From: Fructobacillus sp. CRL 2054
GTDB taxonomy: Bacteria > Bacillota > Bacilli > Lactobacillales > Lactobacillaceae
Assembly (NCBI RefSeq): GCF_028764065.1
Contig: NZ_JACOFN010000002.1
Location: 1 to 64,000, forward strand
DNA: 64,000 nt
Direction of reading: 5' to 3'
Both the position numbers and the translations under genes were made by a program. The notes under the pieces are model-generated. The model ran no database searches, had not been told where the DNA came from, and saw nothing but the letters and a program-made list of their open reading frames with translations. Positions 1,913-62,502 of the stretch are shown in pieces. How positions within the stretch are numbered: position 1 is the first letter of the stretch; every line of letters starts with the position of its first letter.

Positions 1913-1950
1913 AAGGGAGTGGGGCGTTTACGCCCTAAACAAATACCATG
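1913..1950 (+). promoter_or_regulatory. gntP translation start: SD, hairpin, AUG
   Basis: The only SD-like sequence (AAGGGAG, 1913-1919) ends 28 bases before the ATG at 1948. The gap holds the hairpin GGGCG-TTTA-CGCCC (1922-1935), extendable to 1920-1937. If folded, the hairpin shortens the effective spacing to about 10 bases. The same layout recurs at purR and glk. A second in-frame ATG at 1960 has no better SD. Confidence 0.5.
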
Positions 1951-3330
1951 GAATTTATCATGTTAATTCTGTCCATTTTGCTTTTGTTGGTCTTGATCAC
2001 CAAATTCAAATTGAACACATTCGTTTCATTGGTCATTACAGCGATTGTATTGGCTTTGCTCTTGGGTATGAACCCATCTAAGATTCCAAACGCCGTTTTG
2101 GGTAACCAGGGAATGGGAAACATCCTTGGTTCAAACGCCGTCATCTTCATTTTTGGTGGAATGATTGGCCGTTTGGTTGCTGACGCTGGAGGTTCTTACC
2201 GAATCGCTAAGACTTTGATTGCTTGGTTCGGTTTGAAGCGTTTGCAATGGGCCGTTTTGTTGGCCTCATTCATCATCGGAATTTCAATGATTTTCGGTGT
2301 TGGTATGGTGCTTTTGATTCCAATCGTCTTTGCGGTTGCTATCGAAGCCGGTGTGCCATTGCTATACTTGGGTATCTCAATGACAGCCGCCTTGTCATCT
2401 GCACAAGGTTTCTTGCCTCCACAACCAGCTCCTACAGCCGTTGCCTCACAGTTGAACGCTAACATTGGTTTGATGCTTTTGGTTGGACTTTTCGTGTCAG
2501 TGATTACTGCCGTTGTTGCCGGACCAGTCTTTACTAAGTTGGCTCAGAAGTATGCTCCTGATGCTTTCCAGTTTAAGGAACATATCGAAGCCGTTGGGGA
2601 TGTGAAGGAATACGATTTGGACAAGACACCATCATTTGGATTGTCTGTTTTGACTTCTGTTTTCCCATTGATCTTTATGATCATCGCAACCATTTACAAG
2701 TTGGTTGTAACGGGTGGTAAGACACCTAAGAACCCTGATGCTGTGTACCAAGTAATTGATTTCTTGGCAAACCCAGCGATTGCCATGACCATTTCTTTGA
2801 TTTTGGCCATCTTCACAATGGGGTTGATGCAAAAGCGTGATATGAAGACGGTTGGTGCTTCATTGAACGAAGGAATGAACGCCGTTTCAGGGATCTTGTT
2901 GATTGTTGGTGGTGGTGGAGCCCTTCGTGGTGTTCTTGTTACCTCAGGAATGTCAGATAAGATTGCCGACCTCTTCCAGTCATCTGGTTCAATGTCACCA
3001 ATTGCCATTGTTTTCTTTGCATGGGCAGTTGCCTCATTGCTTCGTATTGCCGTTGGTTCAGCCACAGTTGCCGGTATCACAGCCGTTGGTGTTGTGAACG
3101 GTATCTTGTTAGCCAACCCACACGGGGACATGCTTTTGGTATTGGTTGCCTTGGCCATCGGTGCCGGATCGTTGATTGCTTCTCACGTTAACGATGCTGG
3201 ATTCTGGATTTTCAAGGAATTCTTCGACTTATCAGTGAAACAGACTTTCCAAATCTGGACGGTTTTGGAAACGGTTATCTCCGTAACTGGTTTGATTGTT
3301 ATTTTGATTTTAACGGCGGTCTTAGTCTAA
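1948..3330 (+). CDS. gntP: Gluconate:H+ symporter (GntP family)
   Basis: This 460-residue polytopic membrane protein imports gluconate with protons. It is hydrophobic throughout, with about 12-14 predicted helices. The family-like segments FGGMIGRLVADAGGSYRIA (near residue 68) and GSATVAGITAVGVVNGIL and SHVNDAGFW in the C-terminal half are typical of GntP. It lies 42 bases after gntK with no terminator between, so both are probably on one message. The start at 1948 lacks a close ribosome site; the real SD appears to be upstream of a small hairpin. A strong terminator follows directly. Confidence 0.9.
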   Translation: MEFIMLILSILLLLVLITKFKLNTFVSLVITAIVLALLLGMNPSKIPNAVLGNQGMGNILGSNAVIFIFGGMIGRLVADAGGSYRIAKTLIAWFGLKRLQWAVLLASFIIGISMIFGVGMVLLIPIVFAVAIEAGVPLLYLGISMTAALSSAQGFLPPQPAPTAVASQLNANIGLMLLVGLFVSVITAVVAGPVFTKLAQKYAPDAFQFKEHIEAVGDVKEYDLDKTPSFGLSVLTSVFPLIFMIIATIYKLVVTGGKTPKNPDAVYQVIDFLANPAIAMTISLILAIFTMGLMQKRDMKTVGASLNEGMNAVSGILLIVGGGGALRGVLVTSGMSDKIADLFQSSGSMSPIAIVFFAWAVASLLRIAVGSATVAGITAVGVVNGILLANPHGDMLLVLVALAIGAGSLIASHVNDAGFWIFKEFFDLSVKQTFQIWTVLETVISVTGLIVILILTAVLV

Positions 3331-18765: not shown

Positions 18766-18784
18766 AACAAATATACATTACAAC

Positions 18785-18912
18785 AGCTATCAAGAGCAGG
18801 GAAGTGATACAGCACGATGATCCTGCACCAACCGGCATGTGCACGGTGGTAATTCTGTAAGATAGGCAAAGTCATTGCGTCCAAAGGCTTGCTTTGGGCG
18901 CTTTTCTTTTGC
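18785..18912 (+). promoter_or_regulatory. SAM-I (S-box) riboswitch of metK
   Basis: The aptamer spans 18785-18867. P1 is CTATC/GATAG. The 5' CTATCAAGAG is the conserved S-box opening, GATGA-TCCTGC-ACCAACC follows the family pattern, and GGTGGTAATTCTG and AGATAG close it. A downstream terminator, GCGTCCAAAG (18877-18886) with CTTTGGGCGC (18892-18901) and a T-rich run, completes an expression platform. With SAM bound, transcription should stop and lower SAM synthetase. Motif order and spacing support SAM-I rather than the SMK box (SAM-III). Confidence 0.88.
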
Positions 18913-18946: not shown

Positions 18947-20107
18947 ATGACAAAGTATTTTACAGCTGAATCGGTGGCCAATGGCCATCCTGATAAAGTC
19001 GCAGACCAAATTGCCGATGCTATCTTGGATGCGGTCTTGGAACAGGACCCTAAGGCCCGTGCGGCCATTGAAGTAACGACTTCTACTGGTGATGTCTCCA
19101 TCTTTGGAGAGCTCTCAACGACGGCCTATGTTAACATTCGTCAAATTGCCGTTGAGACGGTTCGCGCCATTGGTTATGATAAGCCAGAACTTGGGTTCTC
19201 AGCCGATTCTATTAACGTTTCAAACAAAATTGTTGAACAGTCTGCAGACATTGCCCAGGCCGTTGATAACGCCGATGATGACCCTGACCAACTGGGAGCA
19301 GGGGACCAAGGAATGGTCTTTGGTTATGCCACAAACGAAACGGCTGACTATCTACCATTGGCCCTGGATTTGTCCCACCAGTTGATGCGTAAGATTCGAG
19401 CCGTCCGTGAAGAAGGACAGGTTGCTTACCTCCGCCCAGACGCGAAGGGGGAAGTGACTTTGGCACTATCCGATGACGGTCAGGTGGAACGTATTGCGGC
19501 CGTTGTGTTGTCAACGCAGCATGATGCTGACGTATCCCTTGAACAGTTGCGTGAAGACATGAAGACGTTGGTTATTGATCAGGTCTTGCCTGCTGACCTC
19601 GTTGATGAAGAAACGAAGTACTACATTAACCCATCTGGTCGCTTTGTTCTTGGTGGCCCACAGGCCGACTCTGGTTTGACAGGCCGTAAGATTATCGTTG
19701 ATACATATGGTGGTGCTGCCCATCACGGTGGAGGAGCATTCTCTGGTAAGGATTCCACTAAGGTGGATCGCTCCGGTGCTTACTACGCCCGTTACGTGGC
19801 TAAGAACTTGGTTGCTGCTGGTTTGGCTGATAAGGCCGAACTGCAGGTAGCCTATGCTATCGGTGTGGCTGAACCCGTTTCACTAAACATTGAAACCTTC
19901 GGAACGGCTAAGGTTTCAGAAGATAAGATTGAACAAGTCGTGAAGGACCTCTTTGATTTCCGCCCACTTTCAATCATTCGTTCACTCGATTTGCAAAAGC
20001 CAATCTATAAGCAAACGGCTGCTTATGGTCACTTTGGACGTCCGGACCTGGACTTACCATGGGAGCGTTTGGATAAGGTAGATGAAATTAAGGCTGCCAT
20101 TCAATAA
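18947..20107 (+). CDS. metK: S-adenosylmethionine synthetase
   Basis: This 386-residue cytosolic enzyme makes SAM from methionine and [19 protein letters not shown] (residues 13-28) is the methionine/ATP motif. [12 protein letters not shown] near 117 and [17 protein letters not shown] near 263 are the two PROSITE-type signatures. AAGGAGGAAT lies 7 bases before the ATG. The gene stands alone behind a SAM-I riboswitch, which fits product feedback. The length is typical. Confidence 0.98.
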
Positions 20108-29035: not shown

Positions 29036-29073
29036 CCGATAAAGACGAATGTTCGCCTTTATCGGCTTTTTTT
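29036..29073 (+). terminator. Terminator of the metal transporter genes
   Basis: CCGATAAAG pairs with CTTTATCGG, and CGAA with TTCG inside, followed by seven T. Confidence 0.9.
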
Positions 29074-29074
29074 A

Positions 29075-29083
29075 TGCTATAAT
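29075..29083 (+). promoter_or_regulatory. Extended -10 of purR
   Basis: TGCTATAAT begins directly after the terminator T run, so the -35 region falls inside the terminator stem. Transcription would start near 29090. Confidence 0.6.
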
Positions 29084-29103
29084 TATTTGGATATTTTGTT
29101 TAT

Positions 29104-29143
29104 AAAAGGGGGCGGACTAAAGAGTCCGACACTATTAATTATG
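29104..29143 (+). promoter_or_regulatory. purR translation start: SD, hairpin, AUG
   Basis: AAAAGGGGG (29104-29112) is followed at once by the perfect hairpin CGGACT-AAAG-AGTCCG (29113-29128). Then come 12 bases and the ATG at 29141. No SD lies after the hairpin. Linear SD-AUG distance is 28 bases; with the hairpin folded it is 12. This is the cleanest of three such leaders in the window. Confidence 0.6.
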
Positions 29144-29974
29144 AAGACACGTCGTGCAGATCGTTTGGTCGATATGACCCATTATTTACTCGAGCACCCA
29201 CGCAAGCTCGTTTCATTGAATTTCTTTGCTGAACGTTACGAAACCGCTAAGTCATCAATTTCTGAAGATTTGGCCATTGTTCGTCGCGTTTTTAAAACAC
29301 GTGGAACTGGTGATTTGAAGACTTATCCTGGCGCAGCTGGTGGTGTTTTTTACACACCATTGATGGGCGAAGAGGAAGCAACGGCTTTTGTTGATGAAGT
29401 GATTGCTGAAGTTTCAAATGAAGACCGTGTGTTACCAGGTGGCTATGTGTACCTGTCTGATTTGTTAGGACAACCAGACGTTTTGCGTCAAACGGGTCGA
29501 CTACTCTCAACGGAATACGTTGGTGAAGAAATCGATGCTGTGATGACGGCTGCTACCAAGGGAATTCCTTTGGCACAGGCTGTCGCATCTGAATTAAACG
29601 TGCCTTTCGTTATCGTTCGTGACGATGCCAAGGTGACGGAAGGATCAATGATTTCTGTTAACTATTTGACGGGCTCATCAAAGCGTGTTGAAAAGATGGC
29701 TTTGTCAAAGCGTTCATTGCGCTCAGGTTCACGTGTGTTGATTGTTGATGACTTCATGAAGGCTGGTGGAACCATTCAAGGAATGCAGACACTAGTTCGT
29801 GAATTCGGCGGAACAGTTGTTGGAACGGCAGTCTTTGCTGAAGGTCGTTCAAACGTTCGTTTGATTGAAGACTTCACCTCACTTTTGCACGTTGAGACAA
29901 CCCCTGATACCACTGGCCAAATTAAGGTTACAGCTGGAAACTATTTGTCACGTATTTATCAAAAGAAGGACTAA
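29141..29974 (+). CDS. purR: Pur operon repressor PurR
   Basis: This 277-residue regulator of purine synthesis genes has an N-terminal winged helix (MKTRRADRLVDMTHYLLEHP, then FAERYETAKSSISEDLAIV) and a phosphoribosyltransferase-like domain. The PRPP-sensing motif VLIVDDFMKAGGT is near residue 200. In Bacillus and Lactococcus it binds PurBox DNA and responds to PRPP. The start at 29141 matches the family N-terminus, although its SD lies upstream of a hairpin. It is followed after two bases by glmU; purR-(yabJ/spoVG)-glmU order is common in Firmicutes. Confidence 0.94.
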   Translation: MKTRRADRLVDMTHYLLEHPRKLVSLNFFAERYETAKSSISEDLAIVRRVFKTRGTGDLKTYPGAAGGVFYTPLMGEEEATAFVDEVIAEVSNEDRVLPGGYVYLSDLLGQPDVLRQTGRLLSTEYVGEEIDAVMTAATKGIPLAQAVASELNVPFVIVRDDAKVTEGSMISVNYLTGSSKRVEKMALSKRSLRSGSRVLIVDDFMKAGGTIQGMQTLVREFGGTVVGTAVFAEGRSNVRLIEDFTSLLHVETTPDTTGQIKVTAGNYLSRIYQKKD

Positions 29975-61472: not shown

Positions 61473-61492
61473 ATATTTGTAATTAAGGAAAT

Positions 61493-61545
61493 AGGAGGCG
61501 GACCCCCGATTTGCCTTGGCCATCGGGGGCCAATCGATCATCATG
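61493..61545 (+). promoter_or_regulatory. glk translation start: SD, hairpin, AUG
   Basis: AGGAGG (61493-61498) is 44 bases before the ATG at 61543. Between them, CCCCCGAT (61503-61510) pairs with ATCGGGGG (61522-61529) across an 11-base loop. Folding brings SD and AUG to about 13-17 bases. An in-frame TTG at 61516 lies in the loop. There is no SD after the hairpin. Confidence 0.55.
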
Positions 61546-62502
61546 ACTAAAGATAAATTAATCGGTGTTGACCTTGGTGGAACAACCATCAAGTTTGCAA
61601 TTTTGACTGACCAAGGGGAAATCCAACAAAAGTGGTCAATTCAAACAAACATTTTGGGTGACGGAAAGCACATCGTGCCTGACATCATCGAATCAATTAA
61701 CCACCACTTGGACATTTACCAATTGGATCGCTCACGCGTGATTGGTATTGGTATGGGAACTCCTGGAACTGTTGACCGTGAAAACGGAACAGTTAAGGGT
61801 GCCTACAACCTTGGTTGGGCTAAGGAAAACGCAGTGAAGGAACCAATCCAAGCTGGAACTGGTTTCCCATTGTACATTGATAACGATGCTAACGTTGCTG
61901 CCTTGGGTGAAGCCTGGAAGGGTGCCGGAAACAACGATGCTGACGTTTCATTTATCACACTTGGGACTGGTGTCGGTGGTGGATTGGTTGCTAACCACCA
62001 ATTGATTCACGGTGTTGCCGGTGCCGGTGGTGAAGTTGGCCACATCATCGTTGAACCTAACGGTTACTTGTGTACTTGTGGAAACCACGGTTGTTTGGAA
62101 CAATATGCTTCAGCAACTGGTGTTGTTCACTTGGCACAGGACTTCGCAGAACAATACGTTGGTGAATCACGCTTGAAGAAGATGATTGACGACGGTGACG
62201 AAGTTACTTCAAAGATTATCTTTGATTTGGCTAAGGAAGGTGACTACCTTGCCAACGAAGCTGTTGATAAGGTTGCCTACTACTTGGGTTACGCATCAGC
62301 AACTATCTCAAACATCTTGAACCCATCAGCCATCGTTATCGGTGGTGGGGTTGCTGCTGCCGGTGAATTCTTGCGCGAACGTGTTGAGAAGAACTGGTCA
62401 GTATTCGCCTTCCCAACTGTTCGTACTTCAACAGTTGTTAAGTTGGCTGAATTGGGTAACGACGCCGGTGTTATCGGTGCTGCCTCATTGGCACGTAAGT
62501 AA
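61543..62502 (+). CDS. glk: Glucokinase (ROK family)
   Basis: This 319-residue cytosolic kinase makes glucose 6-phosphate with ATP. The phosphate motif LIGVDLGGTTIKFAIL is at residues 6-21, the sugar site IDNDANVAALGEAW near 113, and LGTGVGGGLV near 137. The zinc motif has His and CTCGNHGCLE (CxCGxxGCxE) near 166-187. The start at 61543 fits the family N-terminus; the earlier TTG at 61516 lies in a hairpin loop. Transcription is under a cre site, and the leader has the SD-hairpin-AUG layout. Codon choice is highly biased (AAG, TTG, GGT), suggesting high expression. Confidence 0.95.
   Translation: MTKDKLIGVDLGGTTIKFAILTDQGEIQQKWSIQTNILGDGKHIVPDIIESINHHLDIYQLDRSRVIGIGMGTPGTVDRENGTVKGAYNLGWAKENAVKEPIQAGTGFPLYIDNDANVAALGEAWKGAGNNDADVSFITLGTGVGGGLVANHQLIHGVAGAGGEVGHIIVEPNGYLCTCGNHGCLEQYASATGVVHLAQDFAEQYVGESRLKKMIDDGDEVTSKIIFDLAKEGDYLANEAVDKVAYYLGYASATISNILNPSAIVIGGGVAAAGEFLRERVEKNWSVFAFPTVRTSTVVKLAELGNDAGVIGAASLARK

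Follow-up and report, generated by a model that had tools for sequence, protein, structure and literature searches.

How does a ribosome reach the start codon of purR in Fructobacillus sp. CRL 2054, when the Shine–Dalgarno (SD) sequence of this gene lies 28 nt upstream of its ATG and is separated from it by a hairpin? The gene is encoded in what we call the window, that is, the whole stretch of 64,000 nt analyzed here (contig NZ_JACOFN010000002.1, all features below being on the forward strand), which belongs to a genome of 1.33 Mb; the PurR encoded there and the one of Fructobacillus durionis are 100% identical. The best reading of our observations is that the leaders of purR, gntP, glk, and ffh are accommodated ribosome-binding sites comparable to those of the phage T4 genes 25 and 38, here in several bacterial genes across a clade, and that the hairpin very probably acts as a constitutively folded spacer that bridges the SD to the AUG.

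The purR, gntP, and glk leaders of the window

The purR coding sequence (29141–29974) specifies a pur operon repressor of 277 aa that matches the NCBIfam model purR_Bsub (E 1.1e-102), and the ATG at 29141 is the conserved PurR start (MKTRR...), common to most of the orthologs read. In front of it, the leader at 29104–29143 has the letters and the distances given by the initial annotation: an SD read from the sequence as AAAAGGGGG (29104–29112) is adjoined without gap by CGGACT-AAAG-AGTCCG, which folds into a perfect hairpin of 6 bp (29113–29128), and a 12-nt tail, ACACTATTAATT (29129–29140), unpaired upon folding, leads to the start codon, so that the recomputed SD–ATG spacing is 28 nt along the chain and 12 nt across the fold. 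As the 3′ tail of the 16S rRNA is in this genome the usual ACCTCCTTTCT, AAAGGGGG makes a good SD with one G-U pair. The same order of SD, hairpin, tail, and ATG had also been claimed for two other genes of the window, and scanning, folding, and inspection of the sequence bear this out with small corrections. Before gntP (gluconate:H+ symporter, 1948–3330), the SD TAAGGGAG (1912–1919) is followed by the hairpin TGGGGCG-TTTA-CGCCCTA (1920–1937), whose stem can be read as 5–7 bp, the tail then being of 10–12 nt. Before glk (ROK family glucokinase, 61543–62502), the SD ATAGGAGG (61491–61498) is followed by a 32-nt imperfect hairpin with a bulged A (61500–61531, −19.3 kcal/mol).

Such arrangements are rare by chance in the window. 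A strict test (SD energy of −7 or lower, an uninterrupted stem of at least 5 bp, a hairpin set off from the SD by no more than 5 nt and from the ATG by 6–14 nt) is passed by 3 of 51 window genes when 0.1 are expected upon shuffling of the SD–ATG stretch, and mononucleotide shuffles of the single stretches give p values of 0.0026 (purR), 0.0044 (gntP), and 0.0048 (glk). Under looser criteria, applied to each ATG, GTG, and TTG of the window, 34 matches emerge, among which the recognized gene starts are those of purR, gntP, and glk. The U run of an intrinsic terminator or attenuator is absent after the stem in all three window tails (ACACTATTAATT, AACAAATACC, and AATCGATCATC), and no known Rfam family is found at the three window leaders at gathering thresholds. 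The only Rfam match in the window is a SAM riboswitch (RF00162, 45 bits, 18784–18868) upstream of metK at 18947.

The region upstream of the purR leader is itself compact. The gene before purR ends in a terminator-like hairpin followed by a T run (29036–29073, arms 29036–29044 and 29057–29065, read from the sequence), the loop region of which contains a palindrome, CGAATGTTCG (29046–29055), that we take to be PurBox-like. The T run abuts a putative extended −10 promoter-like element, TGCTATAAT (29075–29083), so that terminator, palindrome, and promoter overlap, and the predicted element would place the expected start of the purR mRNA near 29090. Similar layouts are seen in several other Fructobacillus purR leaders. 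When the RNA is folded over a longer range (29090–29185), its overall stability is unremarkable (z −1.35, with 22 of 200 shuffles folding as well), and the SD has 5 of its 9 bases paired in the minimum free energy structure and 3 of 9 in the centroid. This longer fold also contains a weak A/U helix between UUUAUAA in the 5′ leader (29099–29105, including two A of the SD) and UUAUGAA over the start codon (29139–29145), which in this folding model is a weak competitor of initiation.

Geometry and conservation of the leaders across relatives

If the hairpin matters as a fold, its pairing should outlive its letters. We compared purR leaders from the best 80 loci, from 13 Fructobacillus-group genomes, and from 20 further genomes, partly of the same species, purR of Leuconostoc G027, G094, and G317 and of G122 (genus g19) being left out of the leaders read. 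The succession of SD, hairpin, 8–12 nt, and ATG is present in all Fructobacillus purR leaders except that of ESL0958, as well as in the Leuconostoc, Convivina, and L1_55_11-type leaders read, with a weak stem in one of them (L151). The initial annotation had proposed to look for compensatory changes in related genera, and there the pairing is indeed kept as the letters vary (CGGACT/AGTCCG, CGGGCC/GGCCCG, GGGTA/TACCC, TGTGCTAA/TTAGCACA, ATGGATT/AATCCAT, and others). Between the window and its nearest relative, F. durionis, the gntP stem carries a compensatory change from G-C to T-A and the glk stem a change from C-G to T-G, the purR hairpin differing in its loop only. As MAFFT alignments of the leaders misalign unequal stems, the stems were compared by script from their closing pair over the outer 5 bp. 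The two arms of a same stem pair at 1.00 of positions in purR (17 distinct stems), 0.96 in gntP (9), 0.91 in glk (9), and 1.00 in ffh (8), against 0.44, 0.70, 0.49, and 0.59, respectively, when arms are swapped between species; the arms being taken from the fold, which favors their own pairing, the shuffles below are the fairer control. With its fold preserved from one species to the next despite the changing letters, the hairpin most likely works by drawing the SD and the start codon together.

The same arrangement extends to orthologs of the other genes. For gntP and for glk, we read the leaders of 13 Fructobacillus-group genomes each; 4 of the 26 (gntP L136; glk L117, L121, and L123) fail our geometry script, yet fold as one domain. 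A fourth gene surfaced by our survey, which from its sequence we take to be ffh, has the bridged arrangement in 13 of 13 Fructobacillus-group genomes. Within Leuconostoc, glk is bridged in 18 of 19 genomes across 37–89 nt and ffh in 18 of 19 across 32–81 nt, all 36 leaders forming a single closed domain with 1–5 nt before and 6–13 nt after it; the two exceptions are glk of G206 (L260), where our motif list finds no SD, and ffh of G347 (L308), a fragment with stops. The Leuconostoc glk domains measure 27–79 nt, range from simple hairpins to branched structures, and have no common sequence core that we could see by eye. Five Leuconostoc leaders are weak (L264, L265, L267, L291, and L292, z −0.5 to −1.5). 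In several Fructobacillus (L112–L117 and L124), the glk loop (61511–61521 in the window) stays close to TTGCCTTGGCC while the stem varies, a resemblance that may possibly reflect a second constraint.

It is in this comparison that a role of the inverted repeats as DNA operators for transcription factors can be weighed. The repeats are palindromic and, in purR, near the promoter; however, their sequences vary between species and between genes with pairing kept, many Leuconostoc domains are interrupted by internal loops or branches, and gntP starts 42 nt after gntK in an operon-like arrangement, all of which makes operators a very improbable explanation.

To describe the geometry, we gathered 70 leaders, or 67 once 3 duplicates were removed, the purR leader of ESL0958 (G011), which has an ordinary SD, being left out. 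Adding 34 Leuconostoc glk and ffh leaders to 66 of these 67 gives 100 distinct SD-to-AUG stretches, mostly from Fructobacillus and Leuconostoc (glk 11 + 17, gntP 13, purR 11 + 18, ffh 13 + 17). When folded from SD to AUG, 100 of 100 form one closed domain that begins 0–5 nt after the SD and ends 6–13 nt before the AUG, when 17.1 of 100 mononucleotide and 17.5 of 100 dinucleotide shuffles would do so, although these leaders are related and therefore not independent trials; the far SD was placed by rule, in one case by hand, before folding. Length-matched stretches before other genes show this geometry at a similar rate to the shuffles, with 150 of 806 in Fructobacillus and 49 of 278 in Leuconostoc (18–19%). 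Measured against dinucleotide shuffles, the sets have median z values from −1.9 to −3.4, and 83 of 100 stretches are below −1.64. Across the 67 leaders, a linear spacing of 22–45 nt contracts to a folded one of 8–16 nt, with means of 11.4 nt for purR, about 11 for gntP (including L137, with its SD set by hand and a folded distance of 14), 12.2 for glk, and 10.7 for ffh. The contraction also removes most of the variation: purR leaders span 25–45 nt linearly (SD of the distribution 4.9) versus 9–15 nt folded (1.9), and Fructobacillus ffh leaders 25–41 nt (3.9) versus 8–12 nt (1.1). In the same genomes, ordinary genes that have one AGGRGG mostly show a spacing of 4–10 nt, and the some 5 nt by which the folded distance of about 11 nt exceeds this may correspond to the width of the helix.

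The far SDs are strong, with a median pairing energy to the anti-SD of −9.6 kcal/mol (range −11.3 to −5.2 in the 100 leaders). As for a second SD, which the initial annotation had reported to be lacking, none of the 100 unpaired tails of purR, gntP, glk, and ffh reaches −4 kcal/mol with the anti-SD. Computed with 25 nt of upstream sequence and 30 nt of gene, the far SD has a median unpaired probability of 0.57 (32 of 100 below 0.5; purR 0.50, gntP 0.37, and glk 0.66 in the window). In the same samples, ordinary SDs have a median of 0.53, with 46 of 98 below 0.5, so that the far SD is no more hidden than usual. RNA thermometers and other SD-sequestering hairpins are local hairpins of the initiation region that hold the SD inside a helix. 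Here, by contrast, the SD lies ahead of the helix, and in the 100 leaders for which accessibility was computed, it is no less exposed than the SDs of ordinary genes.

This bears on the possibility that the folded domains are regulatory switches, opened or stabilized by temperature, a ligand, a protein, or an RNA, and thereby turning translation off or on. Several carriers are metabolic regulators or entry points (purR, gntP, glk), the Leuconostoc glk domains are large, and the loop near TTGCCTTGGCC is kept in several Fructobacillus despite changes in the stem, which would all be in keeping with a switch. Against it, SD accessibility is that of ordinary genes, no shared sequence core is seen between genes or within Leuconostoc glk, the domains of one gene vary from a simple hairpin to 79 nt, ffh has no obvious signal in common with purR, and Rfam has no family for the three window leaders. 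Likewise, the conserved aptamer core of a riboswitch is found neither by eye in Leuconostoc glk nor by Rfam at the window leaders, and many of the stems look too stable to melt within the growth range. We consequently regard switches as unlikely. The initial annotation had proposed both that the hairpin restores the spacing in a recurrent design and that a factor, temperature, or an RNA partner might melt or hold it: The former proposal is sustained by the changing stems, the near-constant folded spacing, and the enrichment in the clade, whereas the stem sequences, the SD accessibility, and Rfam at the window leaders lend no support to control by temperature, a ligand, or a partner.

Relatives that lack the stem and have a normal SD spacing had been regarded beforehand as evidence against a role of the hairpin. 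Such relatives exist, since Weissella, Oenococcus, ESL0958, and four leaders of the genus g19 have no purR hairpin and an SD near the start, but a near SD is exactly what the bridging model predicts where the domain is missing. In g19, an outgroup, the SD is near the same start codon in all the leaders read (4 of 4 for purR, 5 of 5 for ffh, and 5 of 5 for glk, the glk SDs being at the long end of ordinary spacing). The hairpins could also serve another RNA role, such as mRNA stability, processing, or pausing, their placement between SD and AUG being incidental. Leader hairpins can stabilize an mRNA, as in aprE of Bacillus subtilis (PMC11805744); however, the domains close 0–5 nt from the SD and end 6–13 nt before the AUG with a tail devoid of another SD, and the orthologs read without a domain keep their SD near the start, so that we deem an incidental placement quite improbable. 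As separate observations, the coding sequence of purR in ESL0958 (L041) apparently begins at an ATG further upstream that is preceded by an ordinary SD, when glk of the same genome (L124) is bridged, and in most Weissella purR leaders (L056–L064 and L068–L072), the palindrome CGAACGTTCG extends into the SD (CGAACGTTCGAGG), meaning that operator and ribosome site nearly coincide there.

A probable folded spacer and its known counterparts

The position of the domain, its conservation with changing stems, a folded distance that is nearly constant for linear distances of 22–89 nt, an SD-free tail, and a near absence from the sampled outgroups together speak for the bridge. On this basis, the 30S subunit would pair with the SD, the RNA domain starting 0–5 nt past it would sit, still folded, at the platform side of the ribosome, and the next 6–13 nt would reach the P site with the AUG. 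We infer that the domain is folded while the ribosome initiates at this AUG and that translation would drop if the domain were opened. Pulling the other way are the pairing of the AUG with the 5′ leader in the longer purR fold, the purR leader of ESL0958 that does without a hairpin, and the modest stability of some leaders. The bridging domain may also have a role in setting expression level or mRNA stability, or its persistence may just mean that a bridge is difficult to shed after it has been gained.

The kind of leader is known from phage T4. According to PMC3014915, the 27 nt that separate SD and AUG in gene 25 are brought down to 11 by an intervening RNA structure, which was tested by reporters and DMS probing and is conserved among close T-even phages; in gene 38, which the initial annotation had rightly named as a precedent, such a structure cuts 22 nt to 5; and in both genes, mutations that weaken the structure lower initiation. 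Our leaders have the same features, namely a linear distance that is too long, a structure between SD and AUG, a folded distance of 8–16 nt, and no alternative SD. The folded 11 nt described for gene 25 is close to their mean of about 11, but gene 25 is one phage gene, whereas we deal with several chromosomal genes of a bacterial clade and predicted domains of up to 79 nt; gene 38, likewise a single phage gene, is described there with a folded distance of 5 nt instead of 8–16. The ribosome-binding region of Escherichia coli thrS offers a looser parallel. In thrS, the hairpin is placed not between SD and AUG but on the 5′ side of the SD, which it separates from a remote single-stranded site. 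What our leaders would have in common with it is a split ribosome-binding site whose long hairpin the ribosome accommodates without unfolding it (PMC3936740).

Within open-licence PMC papers, we found no such leaders in Fructobacillus or Leuconostoc and no multi-gene bacterial set, subscription journals having been outside this scope, which leaves priority uncertain. No earlier case of accommodated ribosome-binding sites shared across a clade by cellular genes is known to us, and the present set, if true, would be the first, spread across unrelated genes. With a conserved bacterial set, initiation across a folded spacer would prove to be routine for ribosomes, and a class of genes could escape start-site predictors that rely on linear spacing. 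Moreover, about 100 bridging RNAs would amount to a natural library of the structures tolerated on the 30S platform between the SD and the P site, and a folded distance of about 11 nt would be a directly testable geometric rule.

Prevalence of the putative bridged leaders

The strict test was also applied to 400-kb samples of clade genomes, where it retained 7 of 291 genes in F. durionis, 6 of 307 in G008, 6 of 306 in G001, and 2 of 332 in Leuconostoc G064, for expectations of 0.8, 0.7, 0.7, and 0.3, that is, about 2% of genes in the Fructobacillus samples. Outside the clade, it retained 0 of 147 and 0 of 156 genes in two other Lactobacillaceae, 1 of 194 at Weissella loci, 0 of 570 at Bacilli loci, and 0 of 36 in Oenococcus (expected 0.2, 0.2, 0.4, 2.0, and 0.0). 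Pooled, with related genomes counted apart, this represents 21 of 1,236 clade genes versus 1 of 1,103 outgroup genes (Fisher p 1.7e-5). By eye, 3 of the 19 Fructobacillus matches (L161, L199, and L210) look like wrong or internal starts and are still counted, while large or bulged domains escape the strict test. A relaxed survey gave 8 of 285, 9 of 298, 6 of 290, and 7 of 321 genes inside the clade (expected 1.8, 2.2, 2.5, and 1.0), some of them false by eye, and 0 of 142, 1 of 147, 0 of 190, and 7 of 536 outside it (expected 1.2, 0.7, 1.4, and 5.8), which is the level of chance; our conclusions rest on the strict survey and on the orthologs, the relaxed survey being set aside. Chance hairpins or wrong start codons could thus produce matches, as those 7 in Bacilli for 5.8 expected illustrate, but as an account of the bridged leaders they are scarcely credible given that four genes are conserved over many species and that the outgroup orthologs share the start codon.

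Further carriers from the strict survey, named by us from reading their sequences, would be a GNAT acetyltransferase and asnS (two species each) as well as lysC and rsmD (one each); asnS of G008 has an SD-like tail near its start. Extending the bridging interpretation, we tentatively entertain a second regular mode of start selection for Leuconostoc, Fructobacillus, and Convivina, in which some genes, including ffh, carry between SD and AUG a domain of 12–79 nt and arbitrary sequence that must stay folded, some of the large domains, as in Leuconostoc glk, perhaps being switches.

A further gene, presumably dagK as recognized from its sequence, passes the script for this geometry in 12 of 13 Fructobacillus, the failure (L326) being a case where the stem itself was taken as the SD and where the hairpin is present by eye. 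We dropped it as a fifth clear bridged gene because in 6 of the 13 genomes its tail, in a departure from the T4 type, is SD-like (−7.4 to −8.4 kcal/mol), and this near SD may serve where present. The leaders in question (L324, L325, and L328–L331) combine a far SD and a bridging domain with a near AGGTGA-like site, and perhaps represent a transition between the two modes.
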